Positions 5,274 to 59,250 of a stretch of DNA of 64,000 nucleotides are shown piece by piece; within the stretch, counting starts at the first letter, position 1, and each line of letters starts with the position of its first letter. The translations under genes were made by a program, and so were the position numbers. The notes beneath the pieces were generated by a model, which was not told the DNA's origin, made no database searches, and saw only the letters and a program-made list of their open reading frames with translations. This DNA is from Nymphaea colorata (taxonomy: Eukaryota > Streptophyta > Magnoliopsida > Nymphaeales > Nymphaeaceae): assembly GCF_008831285.2 (NCBI RefSeq), contig NC_045145.1:17296802-17360801 (forward strand). Reading direction: 5' to 3'.

Positions 5274-8200
5274 ATGGAGATCACTTCGGGTGGTCGATAT
5301 ATGGCCTACTCACCGTCGCCGTCGACGGCGCCTCAATCCCCTAACATCTCCGGCATTCGCTCTGCCGCGGCTCTCGTGGAGCACGACAGGTATGCGGTCA
5401 CGGGAGCCGCCTTCCCCTCTCTCTCTATCTCTCTGTGTCTCCGAGATTCCGGATCAGATGCATCGGATGAGTGATCTTTATTCTGATCTGGATGATTCCG
5501 ACTCCTAGATTTTCTCCAAAAATTTTCTTTTCTTAGCATCCACGTGTACTCGGATTTCTGGAACCCGTTTGAACGGATCCTTGTTCCGTCTTGTTCTTTG
5601 GTTGACATTTTCCGTGGGTTTTTTTGCTCATGTTCAAGTTCGTAGATTCAAGAGGGGCAAGAGCTTATCTCTTCGTTCCTCATGTTCGTGCTAGGCCTAG
5701 CTTTTTCTGTCGGTCGGGTTGGTGTGGTTGCTGTTTCTCTTGGCATCGATTGTATGTCATCTTTCTCTGGTGGATTCATGCCACAAACAGTCTTGAATTT
5801 ACTTGACTCACTAGATCGGAGATCAATTCCTTAATTGATCATTCACGACTACTCTTTATCTCCGACATGATGGTGGAAGATATGCCGATTTTACTTGTCA
5901 GGAGTAGATCTTAATCCTTAAAGCCGCCTTGTTTTATATATGTAAATTTTATTAACGCTTTTTGGAGTATCCCGTTCTTCTTTTATAATTTCATTGCTTC
6001 TGCTTATAGAGCTGACTCAGAAAAAAAGGAGAAAAAATCTTCGCGAATTCGTCTGGTCGTTTTTATTGAATCTTAATATTCTGTTTACCTTGTGCTGTAT
6101 GGAGGTAACCGGTCGGATTTTGTGAATGTAGATTTTGTGAAATTCATAGAGTTACATATTTAATTTCAAAACCCAAAAAAAAAAGAAAAATGCCCTCTTG
6201 ATCAATTGATTCTTAACAAAAAATTGATTCTTAACAAAAAAAGTAATCTTAGGTCCCCCAACGAAGAGAAACTGTTTCGCCCGATCCACCTCTGCTATCT
6301 TATGCACTTGAAAGTTGAAAGCGAGTCATCACCTGGATGGCCCGCATATTATCTCTTTTTTTCTGCTCTTATTTTGAAGCTTTAGAATTTGAGGTTCTCC
6401 TGGTGAAATGTCTCGGAATATTCTTGTTATGTCTAATCATGATCGTTTTCTCTTATCGTGATTTGTCTGATCCACAGTTGTCAAAAAAAGGAAAATGCGT
6501 TGAGAATCTTAGGATGTCATGTAGTGGTATAGCTTTTATAGTTTTCTTGTCTTCTTCTTGAAACACTGAATTCTGGAAAAAAAAAAAAAAAACTGTTTAC
6601 TAAAACCATGGTTGTTCTGTCTTCTCCTGTGCTAATTTGATGGATCATCAAACTGCTGGCAGATACCTTTCTGATTTGCTGGCGGAGCGAGAAAAAATAA
6701 TACCCTTTATGCAAGTTCTTTCCCACAGCTACAGGCTTTTGAATGAGGGTGAGATATTGGGTCCATAAACCATATTACTTCACTTGCTTTCTTGTTGGAT
6801 CTTAAGTGACACTATGTTTCTTCTCTATGTTTTGGTGTTTCTTGAGTTCTCTATGCTGACATGGTTGTTGTGAATCATCATTCGCATACTTATCTGTGTA
6901 CTTTTGAAGTCTGAGAATTTGTAACAAATAAGGGACGTCCAAAATGTCGAGCTTCATTCTTATCTTTAACATGACTTTGCTTGATATGATTTGGGCTCAA
7001 CGAATTATCGATTCAAGAACTTTAGTTTCCTTGCTTGCTAGTTAGTATTGAAATGGGAAGCCACAATATGGTTGGAAGTTTGGATTCTCATCCATACGCA
7101 GGAATGTCAGTTTCAGATATCTCTTGAAATACCAAAAACTGATGGTAATGGAAGTCTTTTTATGGACAAATCCTAGAGAATCTTGGCACTTAAAATAGGT
7201 TTGGATTTTAAAGGATATAAAAAATAAATGAGAAAGGAACCAATCTCGTCAATGGCCTTTGTATAAAAATATAAAATTATAAATAGAAATAAAAGCTGCA
7301 GAATTATTAGAAGATAAAAACACATTCAAATTTTACAAAAGAAATATAAATGTCTGTCCAGTAAAAAATTCCTGATGTTTTACAATGATTTGTTGTTTTG
7401 ATGTTGTAATATTTTGAAAATATTGCTGCTATGGAAATATCTGTGGTTTATGGTCCCATCACATGGATAGTAGTTGGATGCCTCCCGCATTAATGTTGTG
7501 CTTAAGGTGCGATGCATGAATACCGAGCCAAATCTACATGTTGGTGAATATATTATACCTTATATAATCAGCTAAAAATCTACATGTTGGTTGATTTTCC
7601 TTTTATAATAAGCTAAATTTACGTGTTGCTGTTTGGTTTCTAAATACAAAGCATAGGACTTAAACCCTAGAATGCCACGGCTTTTTGTTGGGGTTAGAAC
7701 TGTAAAACTTCATGGCAGGGTTGATATGTTTTGGTATTATATTATGCTATTGTCTTTTGCAATTTAGCAGTAGCATATTAGGGTCTGCTAAGTTCATGAA
7801 AAATAAAGTATCAGGAGGTTATTGATGCACACTTCATAGTTTAATATTTTTGTTAAACACGGATATCCTTTTGTTTGTTCATGTGAAAACTGTCTTAGTA
7901 ATTAGTACTTCTTAGTTCTTACATAATTCACTCAAAGGTTATTGAGATTTTTTTCTTGAGGTCTTACTATCACTTTTTAAGAAATAATAAAGGGAAATTT
8001 TCGTGTCTTTTGGGGATTCCAGTTCAAGAATGAGTTCAGTTTTGCCCTCATTTCAAGTTTCGTACCCAGATCTATCTTATAGTCATGTGGATCTCATGGG
8101 GGAATGGGGGCGACATGGACTTCTGTTGTGACTCAAGAAAAGATTCTGGTGAAGTTTTTCATGTTATTTTGAAACATGAAATTGTCAAAGTTGCAATAAT

Positions 8201-37016: not shown

Positions 37017-39537
37017 GAAGAAGATGTTCTTATTCAATCCCGTATTTAGAAAGATAAGTTTCCACTGAGTGTAATACGCAAATATAAGCAAAAACTGATC
37101 AAACTTTTGTAACATTGAATGAGGCTCTGCTCATTTGCTCCCACCTCCTTTGAGGCAAAAGGCTTCGCCAACAGTCGTCTGCCACGTCTTTGTTTTCATC
37201 ATACAATTAAATGCCCGTGGAGTTTAATAAATTTACTGTGGCTTGTCCGTGTCGGATCCAGATTGAGCAATGGGATCCAAATCCTGTTTTATGGATCCAT
37301 CGTACATATTATAATCCAAATATTGGAGTAACTTGATGAGATTGAGTCCCATCCACTTTCTAACAATTGAGTTTGGAGTGGACTAGTATAAGATCTGTCA
37401 ATTATTTGTATCTATCTGGGTTGGATTTTTTATCGGATTTCAGTCAAACATGAAGCTCAGAGTCAGATTCATTTGTGATGTTTACATGCGAATACGAATT
37501 CGATTAATAAAACTTCAGATTTCTCTATGGAATGGAATTATCTGATTCGATGAGTTCAAAGCTTCGGTTTTATTAATGCATTTGCATCCAGACATGTAAT
37601 ATATGTGTACTTAAACAAGCATCCGCTAGAGGACATGAGGTTCGATTTAAGCAAACAAGAGCTGGATGTTTGAAAACGAAATAATTACTTATAATTGGAT
37701 TCGACTGACCATTGTAACCGGATTTTGTGTGGAAAACATATACCAAATCCAAGTATTGGATCAAATTTTCTTGTTAAAATGAATATGGTATCCAAGTCCA
37801 AAGCTGGTTTCCTTTTTTGGATCTGGATATGATCCGGAAGGTTGGTAAAAGTTGCATGGGAAGGAGCGCTGGGACCGCCAGTCGCCGCATGGTGGGGACC
37901 ACGTGATGACAGCCACATGGATGCCAAAATCCACGGCGTCAGCAGCGGTGGAAACGGAGCGTGACGTGCTGGGCCATTGCGAGATCCAGATCCAAAATGC
38001 CCAAATCTGACATGGGATCCAATTTTTTAATATATGGATACGGACCTCCACGGGCAATGCTCCAAATGCATATGACAAAGTACCTGTTCAAGAAACATCG
38101 TATTTTTGTCTCAAGAGGTAGGACATATGGTCGCATTGAATACATATTATCGGTTCAATTTATATGGAAATTATTTTATAGATCATAATGATATAATGAT
38201 AAGATCGCGACACTCTAATTGACCAGTATATCATATCTCACCTAAATTCAAGAATAATGAAGTTTTTATTTTAGAAAAATATGATATGATTATGAATAAT
38301 TTCATCAGATTGAGACAAGCAGAATCAAATATTCAATAATTAAATGTTGGACTTAAACATACGTACTTAAAAAAAAAAAATTTCCAGTAAAACAATGTTT
38401 TTTCTATCGAACACTCTTTGAAATTGGATCTAAGATTTTTCAGGTAGTGTTTCTTCAACTATGTAAATTTAGCTACGCCGGCGAAGAAGAGTAGGATGGA
38501 AGGGCTGTCTCCTTTAATTTATATCGGTCTTCTCAGTGTTTCCTGCACTCCAATTATGTCTCCATTGATTACTAGTGAATGCCGAGTAATTTTCCAGCCT
38601 TGTCTCGCCATTCGACGCGCTTTTTATTGATTCAATGTTAATTAATTTGAATCTAAGAAAAAAAAAACAAGCTTAACTTCTTCATATTGTTCTAAACTCC
38701 TAAGTTCTTACCATTTTCCAAAAATTAAAATACCTCTAGACAAAACATATTTTTGCTTGACGGCTTTTGCATTAAGGTTTTCAAATGCACTCAATAATAT
38801 TAGCACATGATTAAGCTTACTTAAATTAATTAATTGATTGTTAATATATAACTTAACTACCTGAATTATTTGTTTCATCCTTAGGTCTAGAAAGTTATTC
38901 TTTGACTTACATGTGTTCAAAAAGTATTTCTTTTGGGGTAAAATGATGCATTTTATCATTTGACAGTTAATGTCACATGAAGAACTGATGAACCATGCTG
39001 GATAACTGTAAACAACTTTGCCTTGTGTTTCTAACAATCTCAATAAACATATATCCACCAATACATATGCTTTCTATCCGTTGAGATTGTTAAATATGGG
39101 AAAAGAATTCAAATATCTATTGTGTTATGTCAATATTAAGCTGGGAATGAATGCGACTCAAAGCAGCCCATCAGATCTCCGCTCTAATTTTGACTAGAGA
39201 TTCAAAATTTTGGGAATCTTAAGACTATTGTGGTAAAATCATCGATTTGTTAAAATCACTACTTAAATTAAACTCCACCCAAGCTAAAAAATCCTGATAA
39301 CTAATAATTAGAATGATCAATAGGCCCTTAAAAAAATATAGTTTGTTTAGAGAGAAACAAAAGGGGTCATCGATACACAAATTGAAGTGCACTAGGTATA
39401 GCATTTTGAGGAACATAAAATAAGAACTATATCATAAAAAGACAAAGGGTTGAGTAGGAGCTTCGACCTTCAACCAAGCAGCAGCATCTTGCTTGTTCAC
39501 TTGAAAAGGGAAAACATAAAAAGATCAGGACATTTTT

Positions 39538-43800: not shown

Positions 43801-43960
43801 CTGCAAGATGCGTGTCTTCTCTCTCTCTCGCTCTCTCATGCGTGCACTCAGAATCTACGAGCTACATTATTGGTCTCATTTGCTTGTTCAGGCATTTTCT
43901 TCAGCTGGCCTTGGTGGCTGGAATCTCACGGGCATAGTCAAACCAGATGATGATCTGTAA
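40814..43960 (+). CDS. SixA-like histidine phosphatase, probably organellar
   Basis: Exons: 40814-41063, 42243-42342, 42593-42772, 43163-43280, 43892-43960 (717 nt, 238 aa). Residues 1-60 are rich in Ser, Pro, Thr and Arg and look like a chloroplast transit peptide. The catalytic core begins at LILLRHAESSW (His72 is the predicted phosphorylated residue). DHDRPLSKAG follows, then SDAARTRET, and the second histidine in MGHNRGW (His181). This is the compact SixA branch of the histidine phosphatase (phosphoglycerate-mutase-like) superfamily; the Arabidopsis counterpart I recall is At3g52155. Bacterial SixA dephosphorylates phosphohistidine, but the plant substrate is not known to me. An in-frame ATG at 40754 would add 20 residues, so alternative starts are possible. 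All junctions are GT-AG, and the total keeps frame. Confidence 0.9.
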
Positions 43961-45584
43961 GGCCATGGTAAGATTTGCGTCGCAGATTTTATTCTTTCAG
44001 TTCTTCCATTTTGGCCTGTATGTATATTATCGACTTAAAGTCGTTAATTGAAATTTACAATCTTGCAGGAGAAGCATTCATATAATGGTGGCACTGTAAC
44101 AGCACTAAACACCTTCTGCACGGCCACAAGCAAGTTTAGTCAGACAATTTGTAACTTGCTTTCTCTTTGTGAATAACTGAGGGAAATGCCATATTTGAGC
44201 CGTTTGATCAACTAGGCCATCAACATAGCGTTCTGCTGTGGCTGCACATGTACAGAAAAACTGCTTTTTGCCAGCTGTGTGAAATTGGGTCCTTTTTATC
44301 ATCATTTTTTCTGCAAATCTAACTTTTCAAAACACAAGTTCTATGTGTCATTACATGAATAAATAAGTAGATGCACTCACCGCCTCTATTCTTGTTGCAT
44401 CGGATTTTAGGTCAACAGATTTCAAGAAACATTCAACCGTTATGCAAGTGAAATTGATTGTCTATGTAAACCGTCTTTACCTAAAGCATCTATGTGATCA
44501 GCGACGTCGGACTAAATATAAGCTAATGGTGCAGTTATTAATTGCTTCCCTTATGGTAGTAGCATTAGTTGTATCTCGCAAGCCACTTGGACAGAACTTA
44601 GCCTAAAGACTGTTTGCCACCTCTTACAGCAGTTGAATCGTAGCTATTACTTTGTCAAAGTGGCTTTACAACTCTCATGCTTGGAAACGGAAGTGATCTA
44701 TTTTCGGACCATTGTAGCACTGTCCCGAAGTGTCATCTATTTTTGAAACTAAATAACCCTTGAAGATCAACAAAGTAAAAAGAGTCACCAGAACAAATTA
44801 TAACCGCTTTATCCGGCAAAGGGACTATAGTCTATACCTATACAGGAAAGAACCCCCAACGTAGCCAAATAATTGCGAAAGAGTAGCTAATCAAGTGTAC
44901 AGTGAGGTATCAGGCAACCAGCTTCTAACAAATAATTTCTGCCAAGGATGATTGGAGATCTAACGAAGATAATCGACTATGTTGGGGGCCTTCGTAACCT
45001 GAACACTGGCTTTGTCGATTCAGATTCAGGCTCTATAAACCCTCTTCCCATTTTAGGAGCAGAAGAGAAAAGTTCCAACCAGTGTAGAGAAGGCCTGTTC
45101 TGCACAAGCATCTGTTCCACGACCACGTGATAGTTCCTGGTTGGAGGTTCGCATGCTTTTTAACCTATGAACAACCAAAGAAACACCGTACCACGTGTAA
45201 CGAAGCATATGCTAATTGTTCAGTTGTTTAAATTTCGTGATAAAGATTCAACAACAAAGTTAACCGTAAGAACACTTTGGCTAGCCTTGCCCAGGCATCA
45301 ACTAAAATAAGGAGCACCAAGAACACACAGTTCCTTCCATATATTGGGAAAAATCTGAAATCACTTAGAAAATATAGCACTAAAAATGTAGGTTTTCTTT
45401 TCTGCAAAGCACATCTTTCGATGTTGGAGAAATTTGTATGGTCTAGGTACCAACAAGGAATGAACTTGATAGCGAAGGAAGCACCTGGAGAATCCGAACG
45501 CTGAGAAAGTGGTTGATAAAATAGAGCAAAATACACAAAGCGACTTCAATCCGGTACCAAACAAGCAAACACTAAAGAGGGATT
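43961..45584. other. No recognised protein gene
   Basis: This stretch begins with the 3' UTR of the SixA-like gene. The remaining open frames are short, overlap each other and match no family. The right part lies downstream of the telo-box promoter on the minus strand and may belong to a non-coding transcript. Confidence 0.5.
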
Positions 45585-45676
45585 CTGTCGGTGCTCATAT
45601 TCTATGGGTGTAGAAGTAGTCTGTCATGCCCAAGGCATTCAGGACGAGGAATTTCTTATAATCATCGCACCGACAG
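45585..45676 (-). ncRNA. Candidate box C/D snoRNA (18S rRNA guide)
   Basis: On the minus strand a 92-base segment is closed by a perfect 10-bp stem, CTGTCGGTGC with GCACCGACAG. Next to the 5' arm is GATGATTA, giving (G)CGATGA, one change from box C RUGAUGA. Next to the 3' arm is ATGA, one change from box D CUGA. An internal perfect CTGA (45639-45642) can serve as box D'. One base upstream of it, AATTCCTCGT (45644-45653) is exactly complementary to ACGAGGAATT of plant 18S rRNA, a region near the yeast G1572 2'-O-methylation site. Guide position -5 would point to the A after that G. Both outer boxes deviate, so this is a candidate, not a firm call. The telo-box promoter-like block 250-320 bases upstream supports it. 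Confidence 0.4.
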
Positions 45677-45926
45677 GCTAAAAGAAAGCTTCTCAAAACC
45701 CGGCCAAGGAGGGAAGAGAAAAATGATTCGACGACTGAGACATCGATGGCATACATTTTTTTTTTCTTTTATCTCAACAACAAACAAACACAAATGAAAG
45801 AAAGGAACTGGTATAAATCAAACTCGCAAAGATCGGACCAACCTAAACGTGCATCGACAGCGGAAGAGGGAGAGAAGAAAGAGAGACGTGGGCAACAGCA
45901 TACAGCACAAATGGAGGCCGGGGCCT

Positions 45927-46000
45927 CTTATAGTAGGAGCCCGACCGTAACCACTAGTAGGAAAAAAAAAAAAAACCCTAACAAAGCAGAAAAACCCTAA
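45927..46000 (-). promoter_or_regulatory. Telo-box pair and TATA box, minus-strand promoter
   Basis: Two exact telo boxes (AAACCCTAA on +, TTAGGGTTT on -) lie at 45973-45981 and 45992-46000. About 40-70 bases downstream on the minus strand is TATAAG (45927-45932), followed by a GC-rich segment. Telo boxes are known in promoters of plant ribosomal-protein, translation-factor and snoRNA genes. No protein gene starts downstream, so the likely product is a non-coding RNA. Confidence 0.55.
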
Positions 46001-48958
46001 CAAAAAGGTTTTCTTTCTTTTTTTTCACCGTGGACGTGAGATCTGCAGCGATACGTGGTATGAGATCTTAGGATCTTATATTCATACATTATTTTCATCC
46101 AACTTTAAATTCATGGTTTTTAACAATTTTAAATCTATGTTAGTGTTTAAACTGAGGAACTCCAACATACCTTTGCATGCAGCATCGAGTCTTTACACCC
46201 AAGTCTATCAAAAGCAACCTTGTTTCGAGTCTGTCATGCTTTAGTTTGCTGCCGATTCGTCCGGCCATAGTTCGACCCGGTTAGGCAGACGACGGCACTT
46301 TTTCTTGGTCCGACTTGGAAAAGACAATGTTGAAGTAGGACTGAGAAACCACATCTTCCTTTAACAGAAAATCTTTGTAAAAAACATATGAAAGTGTACA
46401 TTTAACCGTCCAAAATTAGGCAGTTGAATAAAAGAACGGAAATTTTGACAAAAAGATGTTCAAACAAATACAGCAATAGAAGTCAAACACAATTTGTACT
46501 AAAAGGATTCAGTGTGCAACATGGAAGAAAAATAGCATTACTTTAAACTTCCAAGAGACTCGAATAATATCTCAAGACTGATAGCTTGGAACCAGTATAA
46601 CGTTGTAAAATGCCTTTCAGCGTAAATTTCGTAATGTCGTGCATCCAAGGTTTTGACTTCCATGGCAGACAACTCGATGTAGCCAAGCTTCCTTTAGGAA
46701 TTTCAATAGCTAAATCACACACGTATGCACATTTTGTTAGTCCAACTGGGACTGCAGAATCTGAATAAGTCAAGAAGCTGGTGGTTTCCGTAGGTTTAGA
46801 AGCACTCATGGCCATGTAAGATAACGGCTAAAGGAGAGGATTGCAGCACAGAGGAAGAAAGAAAGGATAGAAGGGAGGTGGGATTGAATACTTTGGCTGA
46901 GTATTCAGTTACCAAGCTTAAGGCTAGACGAGTGAATCAAGGAAGCGGCATTAGGATACGAACTGCGACTACCCATTTTTCGAAAACATTTTTCACGGAA
47001 GAAAACAGGCAGATGGACAAAGTAGGACATGGGGAACTCTATGTACTACCACCAACTGGTGATTTTACCCGTACAGAGAACCCTGATATTTTTTAGTTAT
47101 CAAATGCGTCTATAGTAAGCACCTAAAGGCGTCTCCGAGTTGACGGGAAATTGTAACTTTGAATTGATTAGCTGAGAAGTGACTAGTGGCTAAAGTTCTG
47201 AGCACTCAATAGTTGAGGGATTTTTAAAGAGTTTTTACCAATGGAAGGTAACCCGACATGCATGCGCAAGGAGAAATTTTTTTCATTTTACCTACCAAAG
47301 AACAACAATTAGAAGCAAAGATTTTTTTCTCAAAAGTGGACGGGCGATCAAACAAGGATGACGCATGGTTCATCAAGAATTGTATGAGGCCGCCACAACG
47401 ACCAGTCCTACAACTAATTTGACATTTATGGACATGAAAAGAAGATTTCCAAATAACTTCAAAGCGTAGATGTGGCCCCTGATCAAGTCCAGAAGCTGAT
47501 CTGGCCAGTGACAAAAAGTTCTTTCTCAATGGCTTAAGTACAGATAAGACTGTCCAGGGAGTATTTGAATTAACTGAGATCTGATCATTGCCAGATCAGA
47601 TCTCAATCGTGCGAAATCTAGCCCTCACTTTTGTAAAATAGAAGGCGTTCGAATATTTATCACCATAGTGCAATGCCACCAACATGTTATTAGTCTTTAC
47701 CAAACTACTGCATAGAAAGCTCAAAAAAGTAAAAACAGGAGGGTTTGGACAAAAGCGGCGGTGCTTTGTGGAGCATAAGCACAGTGCAAGACAACCACTA
47801 TTCGAGATTGTCCTTCCGCGCAACCTCTGGAAAGAATCCGTGAAGTTTAACAGAAGGCAGATGTTTAGAAACAGGTGAAATTGTGGTTTGCCCTTGCACA
47901 TCCATTTTCCAAGACTTGTGCCAGCAAAATTTATAGCTGGAACTCAACTTCCAAGTCGTTGTTGGCAAAACCAACAATGCAGTGGCGAATTGTGTATAAA
48001 AAATTGAAAGAGCCATCTTGTTTATCGTCTGAACCAGGTTCTATGCATAAAACAGGCTGACTGGATTTTGAAACGATACGCACACGGACCAATGGCCTGA
48101 AGATAAAGAATGATCTATTGTTCTATAGAACCACACAAGGCAGGAACTTATATGATAATATGAAGTTATGAACCAAAGAACATCTCATCTACAACCCACA
48201 CAGCGCCGGGATTACTTATCCACGAAGCATTTTGCACAACCCAAAAAAAAAACCTACCAAATTCATCAACACTCCCATTTTGACTCTAGTCCCTTGTTCG
48301 AATCTCTCTCTCTCTCTCTCTCTATCTCGTGTAGGGGCACTAGAACTTTGCTACTTGGTAGTCACCATCAGACTAGTAAGCACATTACTACAAACACCCC
48401 ATCACCGACAATGATATAAAGAGCAACTATTCGCATCAAATCTACCAACACCCCTAAAAACCAAGCAAGAGAGACGAAAACAGTTTAAATAAAGAAAAAG
48501 AATTAGCCAAATAGCAGCTATACTAAATAACACAAAGTAGACGCAACTCAAAATGTCCCTTGGATTGTAGAACTGAACTAAGCTTCCCACCAAATCCATC
48601 TTAAAGAAGTGGCCCTTCAACATACCATACAAGCAATACAAGTATTTTCATACAAGATTTTGAAAAGTTAAATTGCATGAACTCCACAGACATCCCAACT
48701 GGGACCCTCAAGCCGAACAGGCTAGCAACTGAAAGCTGTACTAGTGCTAAGGATTGCACCCCTTTGAAGGATACCGTGAGGAAAAAAGTTGCAGAGGAAG
48801 AAATGGGACAAAGGAGGAGGACTGCAAGTCAGAAGAAGCTAAGAGAGAAGGGAAAGAGGTAATTGGAAATGAACGCCAAATGTAGAGATTCAGAAAGAAG
48901 GCAAGACGAGTAAATATAAGCAGTAAGAGTAGGGAAGGGACTGGGATTACCTATGTAT
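46001..48958. other. Spacer and 3' flank of TMN copy 1
   Basis: No recognisable gene. A minus-strand frame of 90 codons at 46543-46815 (starting MAMSASKPTETTS) matches nothing I know. From about 47,450 the sequence is the left part of the duplicated TMN block, and 47575-47605 forms a perfect 12-bp hairpin. The last few hundred bases are the probable 3' UTR of TMN copy 1. A (CT)n tract lies at 48303-48323. Confidence 0.5.
48303..48323. repeat. (CT)n microsatellite
   Basis: About ten CT units in the 3' flank of TMN copy 1. The equivalent position in copy 2 has only a short remnant (about 54760-54772). Confidence 0.9.
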
Positions 48959-50944
48959 CTAGTCAATTTTCACTGAAGAGAAGAGGTAATGGACAAAGTA
49001 GAAGGATATAAGGAAGCCGATTGCTCCTGTTGATAGCATGATGGCAAACGCCATAAGCAGAGAATACCCAAGGTAAAGCATAGCAGAGACAGGACCACTA
49101 AGGCTGCTAAGATCAAAAACTAGATAATTGATGGAGTAAAGGAACACGTAAAGTGCAACAGAACCAGATGCAAAGAATGCCTTCCACCACCAGCGCCAGT
49201 CCTCCACACAGAGGTGCATGTAGGTGAGCACCACAGAGACCTCAGCACAGACAATCACAAGCAGAACTAGCACAATGAGCAGGAAACCAAAGACATAGTA
49301 GAACCTGCCAAGCCAGATGCTGGACATGATGAAGAAGAGCTCAATGAAGAGTGTCCCAAAAGGAAGAGTGCCAGCTCCAAGCACAAGAAGCCAAGATGGG
49401 TACTTTCCCGCAGGGATTTCTCTGGGTATTTGGTTTGTCCTCACAGGGAACTCAATCGGCTCAGCACGGGTACCCATGAATCCACCCAAGAGTGTTAAGG
49501 GCACTGAAATGCAAAACCAGAGGAAGAAAAGCATGAAGTATAACGAAATTGGTATAGCACCAGTGCTTTTGCTTCCCCAGAGGAGGAAATTCAATGCTGT
49601 GAGAATGATGAAGGCTACTCCTGGAAAGAAGCATGCCACCGACCACGACACAGACCTCCAACCTATAGAATCACCTTCGATTGTTCTCCAGAGTCGAACA
49701 GCAACATAACCAGCAGCAATGCCAAGGAAAAGATACAGGACTATCATTCCTGTCAATAGCATTCCTCTAGATGCAGGAGACATAAATCCAAGGGCAGCAA
49801 ACACAATAGAGACTACAGCCATTCCACCAATTTGCACTCCATTTCCAACCATCACGCAGAGAAGTTTGGGCTGCTCAGGTTCCCGAAATACATCACCCAC
49901 GACAAGCTTCCAACCAGACAGTTCTTCATTCATCTGAGCTTGTGCTTCCTTGTCCAGTTCCTCGTATCTGGTAAGATCCCTCCTCACAGTTCTCAGAAAT
50001 ATGACAAAAACTATGCCCGCTAGAAAGAATATCACCATCAAAGAGTTCAATATAGAGAACCAGTGCACCTTAGCTCCCTCCATTTTCAGATAAGCATCCC
50101 AACGAGATGGCCACCTGATATCGCTCTTCACAAATTCAACCTCGTATGTGAAAGCCACACGTTCTTGCTCTCTTATAACCTGGAAACCATCACGACCTGC
50201 TGGACAGGTCTCCGTGGGTTCGATCTTATCATACATCTTGAGCTTCAACATGGCATCAGTGTTACGCTTGATGCTGCATGGCTCAACCTCAAAGCCCACA
50301 ATCTCAAATCCAGAACCTTTCTTCTCATTAGATTCAGTAACAATACCCATCCCTTCATCTCCAGTGATAAGCACCGGTGCACCAGCGCCTTCATACTCAT
50401 GCACTAAAACCTTGAGCTTGAGATGGTTAATAATGTAGTCCTCATTTCCAGTTTGAGTTCTGAAACCTACTGGGAAACCAGTCCATTGAATCCGAATGCC
50501 GTTCTGCTCGGCATACCGCAAGGCTGGTAGATTATCCAAGATTACATTCACCTGATACAGGTCTCTGGTTCTCTGCTTCAAAACTTTAACTTCATCCTCA
50601 TTCAGCGGTTTGGTCACACACAGGAATAAAGATTCATTCAAATTCATGTGAAAACGATAAGGTGAGTTGTCGATCTGATCACCCATCAAGAGTTCCCCTA
50701 AATTTTCAGCACTTTTCTTTATCCCATTTGGGGGCTGACAATATGGCAGGCTGTAGTAGCTGAAAGGAAGTTCAGTCTCAATTGAGGTCAGTGAATTAAC
50801 CTTCACAAATATCTCCTCTCCAGTAGAGTACGTGTGCATATAACTTCCAGGCAGATAAAATCCATTGCACAAGTGTGACATCAAAAGCAACACAGAGAAG
50901 GTCAGTGGCACAAAGTAACTAATCCCAAAAGATAAGGAACCCAT
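48959..50944 (-). CDS. Transmembrane 9 superfamily (EMP70/TMN) protein, copy 1
   Basis: A single uninterrupted 661-codon frame. Residues 1-28 form a signal peptide (hydrophobic, ending SHLCNG), followed by FYLPGSYMHTY, the usual mature start of this family. A lumenal domain runs to about 295. The first membrane segment (LNSLMVIFFLAGIVFVIFL) follows, then LRTVRRDLTRYEELDKEAQA on the cytosolic side and eight more membrane segments. The C-terminus is SVKID, fitting the KXD/E motif that binds COPI and retains plant EMPs in the Golgi. It is closest to the Arabidopsis TMN11/12 type, at full family length. The coding region is intronless, unlike the other genes here, with an intron in the 5' UTR (acceptor at 51148). 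TM9SF proteins act in membrane-protein sorting and early secretory traffic; the exact cargo is unknown. Confidence 0.96.
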   Translation of the reverse strand: MGSLSFGISYFVPLTFSVLLLMSHLCNGFYLPGSYMHTYSTGEEIFVKVNSLTSIETELPFSYYSLPYCQPPNGIKKSAENLGELLMGDQIDNSPYRFHMNLNESLFLCVTKPLNEDEVKVLKQRTRDLYQVNVILDNLPALRYAEQNGIRIQWTGFPVGFRTQTGNEDYIINHLKLKVLVHEYEGAGAPVLITGDEGMGIVTESNEKKGSGFEIVGFEVEPCSIKRNTDAMLKLKMYDKIEPTETCPAGRDGFQVIREQERVAFTYEVEFVKSDIRWPSRWDAYLKMEGAKVHWFSILNSLMVIFFLAGIVFVIFLRTVRRDLTRYEELDKEAQAQMNEELSGWKLVVGDVFREPEQPKLLCVMVGNGVQIGGMAVVSIVFAALGFMSPASRGMLLTGMIVLYLFLGIAAGYVAVRLWRTIEGDSIGWRSVSWSVACFFPGVAFIILTALNFLLWGSKSTGAIPISLYFMLFFLWFCISVPLTLLGGFMGTRAEPIEFPVRTNQIPREIPAGKYPSWLLVLGAGTLPFGTLFIELFFIMSSIWLGRFYYVFGFLLIVLVLLVIVCAEVSVVLTYMHLCVEDWRWWWKAFFASGSVALYVFLYSINYLVFDLSSLSGPVSAMLYLGYSLLMAFAIMLSTGAIGFLISFYFVHYLFSSVKID

Positions 50945-52345
50945 GCTTGAGCAGATTACAGAACTCTGATCCCAGAAATCCTACTCTCACAGCAGACTCC
51001 TCTTTGTGAATCGCTCAATTAGACATGAGTTGAACCTATGAAGCCATTGATAAGAAAGGGTGTATGGGCTCTAAACAACCACATAAAAGATGCAGAAACT
51101 TGAATTAAAGTTCAACCCAGCCCCTGCAATCTCCTCTACGTTCAAACCTGCAAAAAAATAAAAAAAACAGGTCATAGCTGAAGCAATTCTATGTCTGGAT
51201 CCCTTAAACTCAGTTCGTGCTTCCTCCAAAATTTCCAAATCAACGTGAAATACTCAAGACTTAAAAAATGGGTCCACAAAAACTGGTGAGTCATTCAATT
51301 AACAAAGTCGAAAAGGTGGCACTTGCCCTGAAAATCTGCACGAAGATACGCTTTCCTAGTACCTTAAATGGCGTGATAATTTGAAAGGTAAACAGCAAAA
51401 GAACCTTAAACGACGCAGCAACGTTCTTTTTTAATCGGATCTAATGCCTACGTATCCAGAACATGCTAATCAGTGTGAAGATAGATCCGCATAATATCTC
51501 CATTCGAAGAGAACTTGGAAAAGGTAAAGAAAAAAAGAATTTCACATCAATTAACTTGGTTGCATTGACAGCAAAAAATGGAAATGAGGCAGACACCCTA
51601 AGCAGCACGAGACACCACAACAAGCGCAAGTCAGCCCCGTCCTGCAGACAGATAGCAGATATAACAAATACTGATCTTTGATCATAAAGCCAACTAAGGA
51701 GAAATTTCACAGGTACCGAAAGGTATTCTTGAAAAGAACTACAGTTATAAAAAAAGTTCTCTGGAATCTCAAAGGAAACACCATAGAACGCGAAGTTAAC
51801 CAGAAGAAGAACATCTTGCTCAGATAGAAGATCCGAGAATTCTTATAAACTTCGGAAGAAAACAATAAATAAAATAGGTGCCACGGCACAGAAGAACCAA
51901 ATAACGGGGAATTGTGCAAGATCTAAAGAAAACCACCCCCGTCGATACAAGAACACATGGTTTACCGGGAAATAATTTGTCAGAACAGCCAAATCATGTT
52001 CATTATCGACCCTTTCTGGCCCTCACTCTTGGGCAGCGATGGTCAGAGCCAGGATTTCTCCAAGTCCGGCCAGATCCCTAGTTTGAGAAATCGACCGAGA
52101 AGGTAATGAATTTAGTCATTCAAGTCAGTCACCTTATGCCCGAAACAGGCAAGAGACAGGGCGGCGCGCACCAGGAAATAGATTTCCGACAAGATTCTCC
52201 GGCAAGCTTCCCGTTCGTTCAGAGGAAATGCAGCAAATGCTCCGAAACTGACGAGCCGAGTGTGGCACTTTATATCTGTATCAGTTGCGCAACGTATCAG
52301 CAGCTGATCGATTCTTTCTGTATCAGACGATACGCTTTTGCCCGT
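50945..52345 (-). other. 5' UTR, 5' UTR intron and promoter of TMN copy 1
   Basis: A minus-strand acceptor (TTTTTTTGCAG) ends a 5' UTR intron at 51148, so the exon carrying the ATG begins at 51147. A TATA-like AGATATAAAG lies at about 52268-52277. The upstream leader exon lies between, at an unresolved position. The region aligns with that of copy 2. Confidence 0.5.
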
Positions 52346-53679: not shown

Positions 53680-55396
53680 TAGGCATATGAGCTGGATCCA
53701 GTCCAGAAGCAGATCTGGTCAGTGATATTAAATTCTTTCATCGTCCGCTCAACTACAGATCTGAGTATCTTACTGCCTAGGGAGTATTTGAATAACTAGA
53801 TCTAATCATTAACAAATCATATCACATGTGGAAATAGAAGACTTTCCATCCTGTATCACCATAGTGCATGATTCGCCAACACACTATTAGTCTACCAAAC
53901 GGAGGCATAGACAAGTCAACAAAGGGAGGGTTTTTCACAAAAGCGCCTGTGCTTTGTTGAGCACAAGCACATTGCAAAAGCAATCCCTATCCCATAATTC
54001 TTCATGTGGACAATCTTTGGAAAGGAACTCTTTAAGTTTAACCACCAAGGGCAACGGACGAACGAAATTGTGGTTTGCCCTCGCACAACCATTTTCCAAA
54101 AAGTGACTTGCACCTGGAAAAGTTATAGCTGAACCTCACACGTCCAAATCATTTATCGGCAAAAACCAAAAATGAAGCCGTCATCTTTATATACAAAATT
54201 GCAAGAACCAGCTTGCTCCTCGTCTAAATCACGTGCTGAGGATAGAAACAGTCCGACTGTCAATTTTATTACAAACGTGATTTATGCAATATTTCTTGAA
54301 CTCTTGAATATGGAGACCTTCATATATATTGTTTACTAGAAAACAACCTGCAAAAATTTTAAAACATAACCTGAAAATGTGATAATGATTTCCAGATGGT
54401 GATTTCCAAACATGGGTTGCAAATAATTTTTTTTTGAGAATCAGGGGCAGTATATTTTTCCTGTAGTCATGATAAAAGCCTGACTATAATTACCTTTTAA
54501 CAAGAACACCAATCGTCTGAACATAAAGACTAACCTATAGGACCACACAAGGCAGGGAACCGATACGAACCAAACAATGTAAAAGAGGAAAAGACTAATC
54601 TATACCCCACACAGTGCAGGGACTATTTATCCATGAAGCAGTCTGCAAATCATAACAAAGGAACTACAATTCATGAAGAAAGTAGTGATCTGAAGATTCT
54701 GAACAATCCCACTTTGACTCAGATCGTACAATGGCCTCCCGTAATCACCAACGCTCCCTCTCTCTCCCTCCTGTAGGGGCATCACCACTTTACCGTCCGT
54801 ACTATCAAGCACATTACTAAAACCCTCTGCTTCCGACAATCCCAACAAATAAAGAGCAACCATTCACATCAATTCTACCGGTGCCTCCAAAAACCAAGCA
54901 AGAGAGACAAAAACAGTTCAAATATAGAAAAAGAATCAGGTCAATACCAGCTACACTAACTAGAACAACGTAAATGCAACACAAAAAGAGCTCCCATTGA
55001 AGAGCTGAACTGACAGCTTCCCACCAAATTCATACTAAAGAGCGGCCTTCAACATACCGTACAAGACAGGCTAACATTTCCATACAAGATTTTCAGAAGT
55101 CAATTTGTGTGAACTCCACAGACATCCTAACTGGACCTGCAAATCTACAACGAACATGATATCATCCAAAAGTTGTCACAATGCCAGAGGGTTGCACCCC
55201 ATTGATGGCTAATAAAGAAGAAGTTGAAGAGAAGGAAATGGACAGGAAACAAACTGCAAGCCAACAGAATCTAAGAGGAAAAAGGGGAAGAGGCAAATTG
55301 GAAATGAAGGCTGAATGTAGAGATATGGAAAGTAGGCTAGACGAGTAAACAGATGCTCTAAGAAAGAGTAGGAAATGGACTGGATTACCTTTTTGT
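53680..55396. other. 3' flank of TMN copy 2
   Basis: Homologous to the 3' flank of copy 1 but with many indels. Open frames here are not conserved between the copies, so I see no coding gene. A short inverted repeat, TGTGCTT...AAGCACA on the minus strand near 53,950, is kept in partial form in both copies. Confidence 0.5.
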
Positions 55397-57382
55397 CTAG
55401 TCAATTTTTACTGATGAGAAGAGGTAATGGACAAAGTAGAAGGATATAAGGAAGCCAATGGCTCCTGTCGATAGCATGATGGCAAATGCCATAAGTAGAG
55501 AATACCCAAGGTAAAGCATGGCAGATACAGGACCGCTAAGGCTGCTCAGATCAAAAACTAGATAATTGATGGAGTAGAGGAACACGTAGAGCGCAACAGA
55601 ACCAGATGCAAAGAATGCCTTCCACCACCACCTCCAATCCTCCACACAGAGGTGCATGTAGGTGAGCACCACGGAGACCTCAGCACAGACAATCACGAGC
55701 AGAACTAGCACAATGAGCAGGAAACCAAAGACATAGTAGAACCTGCCAAGCCAGATGCTGGACATGATGAAGAAGAGCTCAATGAAGAGCGTCCCAAATG
55801 GAAGAGTGCCAGCTCCAAGCACAAGAAGCCAAGACGGGTACTTCCTCGCAGGGATTTCTCTGGGGATCTGGTTTGTCCTCACAGGGAACTCAATTTGCGC
55901 AGCACGGGTACCCATGAATCCACCCAAGAGTGTTAAGGGCACTGAAATGCAGAACCAAAGGAAAAATAGCATGAAGTATAGTGAAATTGGTATAGCACCA
56001 GTACTTTTGCTTCCCCAGAGGAGGAAATTCAATGCTGTGAGAATGATGAAGGCTACTCCTGGAAAGAAACAAGCTGCCGACCATGACACAGACCTCCAAC
56101 CTAAAGGATCGCCCTTGATTGTTCTCCAGAGTCGAACAGCAACATAACCAGAAGCTATTCCAAGGAAAAGATACAGGACTATCATTCCTGTCAATAGCAT
56201 TCCCCTAGATGCAGGAGACATAAATCCAAGAGCAGCAAACACGATAGACACTACGGCCATTCCACCAATTTGCACTCCATTTCCAACCATCATGCAGAAA
56301 AGTTTGGAGTGTTCAGGCTCCCGAAATACATCACCCACGACAAGCTTCCAACCAGATAGCTCTTCATTCATCTGAGCTTGTGCTTCTTTGTCCAGTTCCT
56401 CGTATCTGGTAAGATCCCTCCTTACAGTTCTTAAAAATATAACAAAAACTATGCCCGCTAGAAAGAAGATCACCATCAGAGAGTTCAATATAGAGAACCA
56501 GTGTACCCTAGCTCCCTCCATTTTCAGATAGGCATCCCAACGAGATGGCCACCTGATATCGCTCTTCACAAATTTAACCTCGTATGTGAAAGCCACACGT
56601 TCCTGCTCTCTTATAACCTGGAAACCATCACCACCTGCTGGACAGGTCTCCGTGGGTTCGATCTTATCATACATCTTGAGCTTCAACATGGCATCAATGT
56701 TACGCTTGATGCTGCATGGCTCAACCTCAAAGCCAACAATCTCAAACCCAGAACCTTTCTTCTCATTAGATTCAGTAATGACACCCATCCCTTCATCTCC
56801 AGTGATAAGCACCGGTGCACCAGCGCCTTCATACTCATGCACTAAAACCTTGAACTTCAGATGGTTAATAATGTAGTCTTCATTTCCAGATTGAGTTTTG
56901 AAACCTACTGGGAAACCAGTCCATTGAATCTGAACACCATTCTGCTCAGCAAACCGCATGACTGGTAGATTGTCCAAGATCACATTCACCTGATACAAGT
57001 CCCTGGTTCTTTGCTTCAAAACTTTAACTTCATCCTCATTCAGCGGTTTTGTCACGCACAGGAACAAAGACTCGTTCAAATTCATGTGGAAACGATAAGG
57101 TGAGTTATCAATCTGATCACCCATCAAGAGTTCACCTAAATTTTCAGCACTCTTCTTTATCCCATTTGGGGGCTGACAATATGGCAGGCTGTAGTAGCTG
57201 AAAGGAAGTTCAGTCTCAATTGAGGTCAGTGAATTAACCTTCACAAATATCTCCTCCCCAGTAGAGTACGTGTGCATATAACTTCCAGGAAGATAAAATC
57301 CATTGCACAAGTGTGACGTCAAAAGCAACACAAAGAACGTCAGTGCCACGATGGAACTAATCCCAAAAGATAACTGACCCAT
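55397..57382 (-). CDS. Transmembrane 9 superfamily (EMP70/TMN) protein, copy 2
   Basis: A second intronless 661-codon frame with the same plan as copy 1: signal peptide 1-28, FYLPGSYMHTY, lumenal domain, nine membrane segments and C-terminal SVKID for Golgi retention. By eye it differs from copy 1 at about 32 residues (roughly 95% identical). Differences cluster in the signal peptide, around 144-190, around 352-362 and 425-445. Residues of about 29-140 and the last 150 or so are identical. Silent changes are frequent even in the identical parts, so both copies appear to be under purifying selection and functional. The 5' UTR intron is shared (acceptor at 57595). Its promoter faces the EF-Ts gene. 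Confidence 0.96.
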   Translation of the reverse strand: MGQLSFGISSIVALTFFVLLLTSHLCNGFYLPGSYMHTYSTGEEIFVKVNSLTSIETELPFSYYSLPYCQPPNGIKKSAENLGELLMGDQIDNSPYRFHMNLNESLFLCVTKPLNEDEVKVLKQRTRDLYQVNVILDNLPVMRFAEQNGVQIQWTGFPVGFKTQSGNEDYIINHLKFKVLVHEYEGAGAPVLITGDEGMGVITESNEKKGSGFEIVGFEVEPCSIKRNIDAMLKLKMYDKIEPTETCPAGGDGFQVIREQERVAFTYEVKFVKSDIRWPSRWDAYLKMEGARVHWFSILNSLMVIFFLAGIVFVIFLRTVRRDLTRYEELDKEAQAQMNEELSGWKLVVGDVFREPEHSKLFCMMVGNGVQIGGMAVVSIVFAALGFMSPASRGMLLTGMIVLYLFLGIASGYVAVRLWRTIKGDPLGWRSVSWSAACFFPGVAFIILTALNFLLWGSKSTGAIPISLYFMLFFLWFCISVPLTLLGGFMGTRAAQIEFPVRTNQIPREIPARKYPSWLLVLGAGTLPFGTLFIELFFIMSSIWLGRFYYVFGFLLIVLVLLVIVCAEVSVVLTYMHLCVEDWRWWWKAFFASGSVALYVFLYSINYLVFDLSSLSGPVSAMLYLGYSLLMAFAIMLSTGAIGFLISFYFVHYLFSSVKID

Positions 57383-59250
57383 GCTTTAGCAGATTACAGA
57401 TCCCCTATCTGTCCAGAAATCCTCCTCTCACAGGATGCTCCTCTTTGTCAATTGCTCAATTAGACATGAACAGAATCGATGAAGCCGCTGATAAGAAAGG
57501 GTATATAGACTGTAAACTGTAACAACCTTATAAAGCATGCACAATCTTGATTTGAAATTCAAAACAACCCCTCCAATCTCCTCTACGGTCAGAACTGCAG
57601 AACATTAAAAAAAGGGATCAGGTGATAGCTGAAGCAGTTCTATATGTCCGAATCACTTAAACTCAGTTCGTACTTCAGTTGAAATTTCTAAATCGATATC
57701 AAAAACTTAAAGACTTAAACGGTAAGTTCAAAAGAACTCGATGACTTATTCAATTAACAAAGTAAAAAAAAAAAAAAAGATGGACACATGCCACAAAAAA
57801 AAACTGCCAAGAGATATGCCTCCCGAGTAGCTCAGATGGCGTGATAATTTGAAAGAAACAGCAAATGCATCTTAAACGACACAGCAACATTCTTTTGCAA
57901 TCGGATCTAACGCCTACAAACCTATGACATGCTAACAAGTGTAAAAATATATCGGCATAACAGAAGAACTTGGACGATGTAAAGAAAAAGAGAAGTAAAA
58001 AAAATGAAAAAGAGATAGACACCCTAGAAGCACGAGACACTCCAAAAAAGAGCAAGTCAGCCTACCCCGCAGACGGATAACAGATCTAAACAAATACTGA
58101 TCCTCGCCCACAAAGGCGGCTAAGGAGAAGCTTCACGGGCACCGTCACATATCCTTGAAAATAATTCCAGTCATAAAAAGTTCGTTCGGATCTCAAAGGA
58201 ATGACCATGAAACGCGAAGTTAACCAGAACAAGGAACGTTCACTTGCTCGGATAGAAGATCCCCGCATTCTTACGAACTTGGGAAATAAACAATAAAGAA
58301 CGTAGGTGCCACAGTACAGAAGAACCAAAAGAGGCGGAATTGTGCAAGATCTAGAGAAAACCACCCATTTCGATACCGTAACATATGGTTGACCGGGAAA
58401 TAACCTATCAGAACAGCCAAATTAGATGCATTTTCGACCGTTTCTGGCCCTCACTCCAGCGTCAACGACACTCAGAGCCAGGATTTCTCCGAGTTAGGCC
58501 GGAACCCTAGTTTGATAACAACCAATAAGAAAAAGATAATGAGTCTAGTCGTTCAATCAACTCACCCCGACGTCGAAAACAAGCAGGAGACAGGGCGTCG
58601 CTCGCCAGAAATCGATTTCCAATAAGACTCTCCGGCAAACTTCCCGTTCGGTTAGTGGAAAAACTCCGAAAGTGACACTCGAGCGCCTACGGACGGACGA
58701 GCGAAGGATGGCTCTCTCTCTCTCACACTGCAATATATATATGCCGCAACGTGTCATCCGTCATCCATCCGACGATACGCTTTGGCGCTCGTAAGCGGCC
58801 ATTTATTTTTGGAAATTAAAAAAATAATTGAGAAAAAAAAATCTTAGGTCTGCATCTGGACAATCTCCTAGATCAGATCTGTATCAGGATAAAATATATT
58901 TTTAGAATTTTCTTTTTAATGACAGTGTTCTCTAAACAAAGATTGTTCGATGAAAAGCAAATTTTAAGTAATATTGAATTAGATTTATTAAAATGAAGTT
59001 GGCAACAATTGGATTTGATTTATTGTCACTAAGTATACGTAATTTTATATTGTCTTCAAATATATTCACTATGACATATGGACATAAGAGAGATCCACGC
59101 TGCTACTGAGTTTGGCGAGATCTCTGCTCGGGTCGAACCGAGTTTGACACATCTGAGATTTGCTCGACGAGTGGCCGACTCGGACTGCCAAAGAGAACGA
59201 GTTACTCTCGAACCGAGTTGAGCATAAACCCAAAACCACGAAGGCCAGTC
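57383..59250. promoter_or_regulatory. Divergent promoter region, TMN copy 2 / EF-Ts
   Basis: The left part is the 5' UTR and 5' UTR intron of TMN copy 2, ending near a minus-strand TATATATA at about 58734-58741 with a GA/CT repeat beside it. The right part (58,800-59,250) is unduplicated and serves the EF-Ts gene. It carries two exact copies of TCGAACCGAGTT (59133-59144 and 59208-59219) and other CGAG words just before the EF-Ts leader. Confidence 0.45.

Follow-up and report, generated by a model that had tools for sequence, protein, structure and literature searches.

A probable snoR8a gene behind telo boxes in Nymphaea colorata, with predicted guides to 18S rRNA A1579 and U1264

Box C/D RNAs assemble with fibrillarin, NOP56, NOP58 and an L7Ae-type protein, and by the fifth-nucleotide (D+5) rule methylation is placed opposite the fifth base before box D or D'. 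For the snoR8 family, the closest described system, the Arabidopsis RiboMeth-seq data in Table 1 of Wu et al. 2021 (PMC8053127) assign SnoR8 as the sole guide to 18S A1579, and both SnoR8 and SnoR67 to U1264. In the table of PMC11542601, Am1579 is entered for Arabidopsis, tomato and tobacco, and there is no human, yeast, algal, archaeal or bacterial entry. Um1264 is entered there for Arabidopsis, tomato and alga (the algal sites being predictions, according to the paper's text) and is not mapped in tobacco. A 2016 survey (PMC5122169) lists snoR8 without a target, terms it an orphan and counts it among at least eight families taken for recent innovations; in our reading the later RiboMeth-seq assignment of SnoR8 outweighs this label. 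As for promoters, Gaspin et al. 2010 (PMC3022908) examined 40 non-intronic snoRNA loci of Arabidopsis and found telo boxes ahead of 37 and site II or TEF motifs at 34. Their Table 3 covers 23 intergenic orphan Arabidopsis snoRNAs, 21 with a telo box, 17 with telo box plus site II and one with TEF. In rice telo boxes are a weaker mark (15/35 non-intronic orphan snoRNA genes, same source).

Here we describe a minus-strand locus in Nymphaea colorata, found in a stretch of 64,000 nucleotides that was analysed as a whole (the window). With a probability of roughly 0.95, the locus is a snoR8a gene with a telo-box/TATA promoter whose RNA is predicted to guide 2'-O-methylation of 18S A1579 and U1264. 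This adds to the annotation a non-coding gene that would escape methods based on proteins, and links it to two mapped 18S methylations; for one of them, Am1579, the PMC11542601 table has plant entries only.

Family membership and box architecture

When the complete window was scanned with Rfam 15, RF01284 (snoR8a, box C/D snoRNA) was the sole match at the gathering threshold, with 77.6 bits against a gathering score of 37 and E = 5.6e-13. The covariance model is matched end to end (positions 1-92 of 92). Such a scan against the Rfam C/D families had been proposed in the initial annotation, whose reading of a telo-box promoter plus a box C/D snoRNA was correct in kind. Its suggestion of a divergent, degenerate or new guide does not hold: the family is a known one, RF01284 has the same outer-box letters in its consensus, and methylation of the target has been published. 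The features of the locus are collected in Table 1.

Table 1. Features of the snoR8a locus and its upstream region (positions within the window)
Feature	Position	Strand	Basis
Distal telo box (AAACCCTAA on +)	45992..46000	-	exact match
Proximal telo box (AAACCCTAA on +)	45973..45981	-	exact match
TATA-like box CTATAAGAGG	45924..45933	-	script; function inferred from position
Putative transcribed leader, partly pyrimidine-rich	45677..45900	-	inferred from TATA position
snoR8a box C/D snoRNA with 10-bp terminal stem	45585..45676	-	Rfam RF01284 45589-45674; stem by script
Terminal stem, 5' arm CTGTCGGTGC	45667..45676	-	script
Box C GCGATGA, one change from RUGAUGA, letters as in Rfam consensus	45662..45668	-	alignment, script
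D' guide AATTCCTCGT, pairs 18S ACGAGGAATT, predicted target A1579	45644..45653	-	pairing and published sites
Box D' CTGA	45639..45642	-	script
C'-like CATGACA, same as family consensus	45622..45628	-	alignment, script
D guide CACCCATAGAAT, pairs 18S ATTCTATGGGTG, predicted target U1264	45599..45610	-	pairing, primers, register
Box D ATGA, letters as in Rfam consensus	45595..45598	-	alignment, script
Terminal stem, 3' arm GCACCGACAG	45585..45594	-	script

The 92-base segment and the C-, D- and D'-like motifs reported earlier were all recovered by script, the segment being closed by a perfect 10-bp stem (CTGTCGGTGC / GCACCGACAG) that joins boxes C and D. Measured against the general RUGAUGA and CUGA (consensus and tandem GA pairs in PMC8053127), the outer boxes GCGAUGA and AUGA are each one letter off, and box D' is the canonical CUGA. 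The outer boxes (CGATGA, ATGA) had been called imperfect, which holds with respect to the general consensus but does not signify decay; as RF01284 carries the same letters, they do not count against snoR8a membership.

Conservation was assessed by comparing the locus solely with the RF01284 consensus, to which 71 of 93 columns are identical. Box C through D' with its flank agrees in 32/35 columns, the C' region in 10/10, and the D guide together with box D in 19/19. The two spacers diverge (3/11 and 3/9 identical) and hold 14 of the 22 differing columns; the remaining end columns agree in 4/9, and five model positions are absent from the D'-C' spacer. Conservation is thus concentrated in boxes and guides, with variable spacers and ends, which is the pattern expected of a working guide. 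Judged by its sequence, the copy is probably a functional, routine member of a known family; it looks intact but ordinary, and no general picture is altered.

The usual kink-turn contains a three-base bulge. At this locus the pairing of the closing stem can continue across the first two letters of box C as far as box D (45662-45676 with 45585-45598), and the paired form leaves no obvious bulge of this kind. The letters of the RF01284 consensus permit the same pairing, so it seems to be a family trait and not specific to this copy. That snoR8 uses a non-canonical C/D kink-turn, yet guides two methylations, strikes us as a long shot.

Two guides and their predicted 18S targets

The D' guide AATTCCTCGT forms 10 perfect base pairs with 18S ACGAGGAATT and ends one base before CTGA, as the initial annotation had noticed. 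ACGAGGAATT is present in both eukaryotic 18S sequences compared, which lie on contigs L001 and L002 and were identified as rRNA by Rfam. By the D+5 rule the guide faces the second A of ACGAGGAATT, the bracketed A of ACG[A]GGAAUU; of the target given earlier as A/G, the A therefore stands and the G does not. In both 18S sequences this A precedes the conserved C of ...ACACCGC by 66 bases. The same distance separates A1579 from C1645 in Arabidopsis, so that the target fits A1579; PMC11542601 equates C1645 with yeast C1639 and E. coli C1402. The L001 18S also has a 10-base complement to snoRNA positions 63-72, which is absent from L002 and was taken as chance, as were 7-base complements found in both.

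The contigs themselves call for a remark. L001 (1-3362) and L002 (2182-8000) carry eukaryotic 18S and 28S rRNA and are filed as bacterial (Borreliella garinii MAG and Caedibacter MAG); they are probably mis-binned host or protist DNA. Eukaryotic 18S rRNA also stands at the ends of two contigs filed as viral in IMG/VR (L003, 3632-4543; L004, 4059-4305).

A second guide had been overlooked, so that the copy carries two guides and not one. Directly before the ATGA box, CACCCATAGAAT forms 12 perfect base pairs with ATTCTATGGGTG, a pairing judged against plant 18S primers and the 18S of L003. ATTCTATGGGTG is contained in 18S primers for Populus, maize and rose (PMC3479007, PMC4120688, PMC11010427), the Populus primer starting GATTCTATGGGTGG. 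It also occurs in the eukaryotic 18S of L003, some 460 bases before the D' site; an exact match is absent from the two non-plant 18S sequences of L001 and L002, which differ at that stretch. The fifth base of the guide faces the bracketed U of AUUC[U]AUGGGUG (ATTC[T]ATGGGTG in DNA). Numbering this U as 1264 reproduces all four published letters U1264, U1266, U1273 and G1275, which the 26-base 18S stretch does in this register only. The stretch was confirmed by exact match. The assignment of the D guide to U1264 is less secure, because Um1264 is not mapped in tobacco and SnoR67 is also assigned to it in Arabidopsis.

Both sites predicted from the guide sequences thus fit the published SnoR8 positions. 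Because the name is shared and both sites agree, we infer that RF01284 and the published Arabidopsis SnoR8 are the same family. A literature search on the name snoR8a found nothing, and the available text of PMC2780460, PMC4247016, PMC2653536 and PMC8351944 gives only names that start similarly (snoR81, snoR85, snoR88 etc.). HbsnoR8 of the rubber tree was rejected as the same RNA, as it belongs to a separate numbering (PMC8575768).

Promoter, surroundings and alternative readings

Two exact telo boxes and a TATA box on the minus strand had been claimed, and all three were found by script. The telo boxes read TTAGGGTTT on the minus strand, and the 9-mer AAACCCTAA occurs on both strands of the window in these two copies only; the 8-mer AAACCCTA occurs a third time, at 7662. 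In 40 simulated first-order Markov windows, the chance model used throughout, the 9-mer has a mean of 1.03 per window, and two copies within 40 bases were seen in 0/40. Site II (TGGGCY) is missing on either strand between copies at 39165 and 49867, and a TEF box is missing in 44500-47000. The promoter is therefore of the telo-box kind with its usual partner missing.

In the frames examined, nothing contradicts the statement that no protein gene starts at this locus. Six stop-to-stop frames in and around the unit were compared with Pfam (minus strand: 45231-45545, 46546-46827, 47227-47595 and 47599-47943; plus strand: 45665-45997 and 45951-46241), and none has a match above the curated cut-off. 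Four weak matches in frame 45665-45997 (+), the best with E 0.11, lie below it. On the basis of these six frames a host protein gene was rejected. Nearby matches to SNORD19B, MIR1888 and sR14 are far below their gathering scores and were dismissed. The scan for tRNAs found none, and blastn at E 1e-3 detected the snoRNA region only once in the window. A motif scan of the minus strand at 43900-45900 found no further C/D units, with settings (no more than one mismatch in box C, an exact CTGA and a stem of at least 5) that would miss AUGA-box units such as snoR8a. Upstream on the minus strand stand two tandem EMP70-type (TM9SF) genes, identified by Pfam. They belong to a tandem duplication of about 4 kb (48312-52228 and 54754-58661; 84% DNA identity), and their translations share the same residue at 631 of the 663 positions aligned; the snoRNA lies outside the duplication. 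Gene content and telo boxes give the window the look of a seed-plant nuclear genome.

The gap of about 250 bases between the TATA-like box and the snoRNA would also suit another arrangement, in which the telo-box promoter drives a longer host transcript, non-coding or a 5' leader, and the snoRNA is part of one of its introns or exons, from which splicing and trimming set it free. Such promoters can also stand before intronic snoRNAs of plants, and 31 of 109 rice loci were intronic in one survey (PMC3022908). Against a host transcript speak the long downstream minus-strand frame (45231-45545), which has no Pfam match, the lack of a second Rfam snoRNA at threshold within the window, and the splice sites, which on inspection by eye offered a weak donor candidate only. 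We regard this arrangement as rather unlikely, though it is the strongest competitor of an independently transcribed snoR8a gene.

That the locus is a snoR8a pseudogene of recent origin, or a silent copy, is far less probable. The loss of five model positions between D' and C' and the non-canonical letters of boxes C and D could be read in this way; yet both guides, the consensus-type boxes and the perfect 10-bp stem are retained, most differing columns fall within the two spacers, and the promoter-like motifs are in place.

Apart from the pair of telo boxes, single features of the locus are unremarkable by chance, and it is the Rfam match that decides family membership. Perfect 10-bp stems with a loop of 50-120 bases and at least six G/C occur three times in the window, so that such a stem is not rare alone. 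A 10-base complement to an 18S 10-mer common to L001 and L002, located 0-1 base before CTGA, is seen once versus 0.33 expected, counted over the 548 CTGA on both strands of the window; with 10-mers of either 18S the same test gives eight versus 4.4. Accordingly, a GC-rich stem or an 18S complement is not rare in 64 kb, but the reading that the motifs came together by chance, with no RNA gene present, is in our view refuted by the match to the whole RF01284 model, and its probability is negligible.

As a separate observation on the window, perfect 10-bp inverted repeats with a loop of 50-120 bases number 788, versus 7.9 in the simulated windows. The first 60 of the 788 listed all begin at 1418-1420, apparently within a long TA-type repeat at about 1418-1540.

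Proposed biogenesis and comparison with known systems

For the snoR8a gene we propose the following course in Nymphaea colorata. RNA polymerase II would start at the telo-box/TATA promoter, with its TATA-like box about 250 bases upstream of the snoRNA, and the precursor would be trimmed to some 86-92 nt around the closing stem. The RNA would then assemble with the established box C/D proteins named above. In the assembled particle, the D' guide is predicted to direct 2'-O-methylation of 18S A1579 and the D guide that of U1264 (both in Arabidopsis numbering).

Compared with RF01284 and Arabidopsis SnoR8, the Nymphaea colorata copy has the same boxes and guides as the consensus, and its predicted targets are the published SnoR8 positions. 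In contrast, its D'-C' spacer is shorter by the five missing model positions, its second spacer is altered, and its terminal stem comprises 10 perfect pairs where the RF01284 structure marks four. Like the intergenic plant snoRNA promoters of Gaspin et al., the upstream region places telo boxes and a TATA-like box ahead of a non-coding snoRNA unit; it differs from them in lacking a nearby site II (TGGGCY) or TEF motif.
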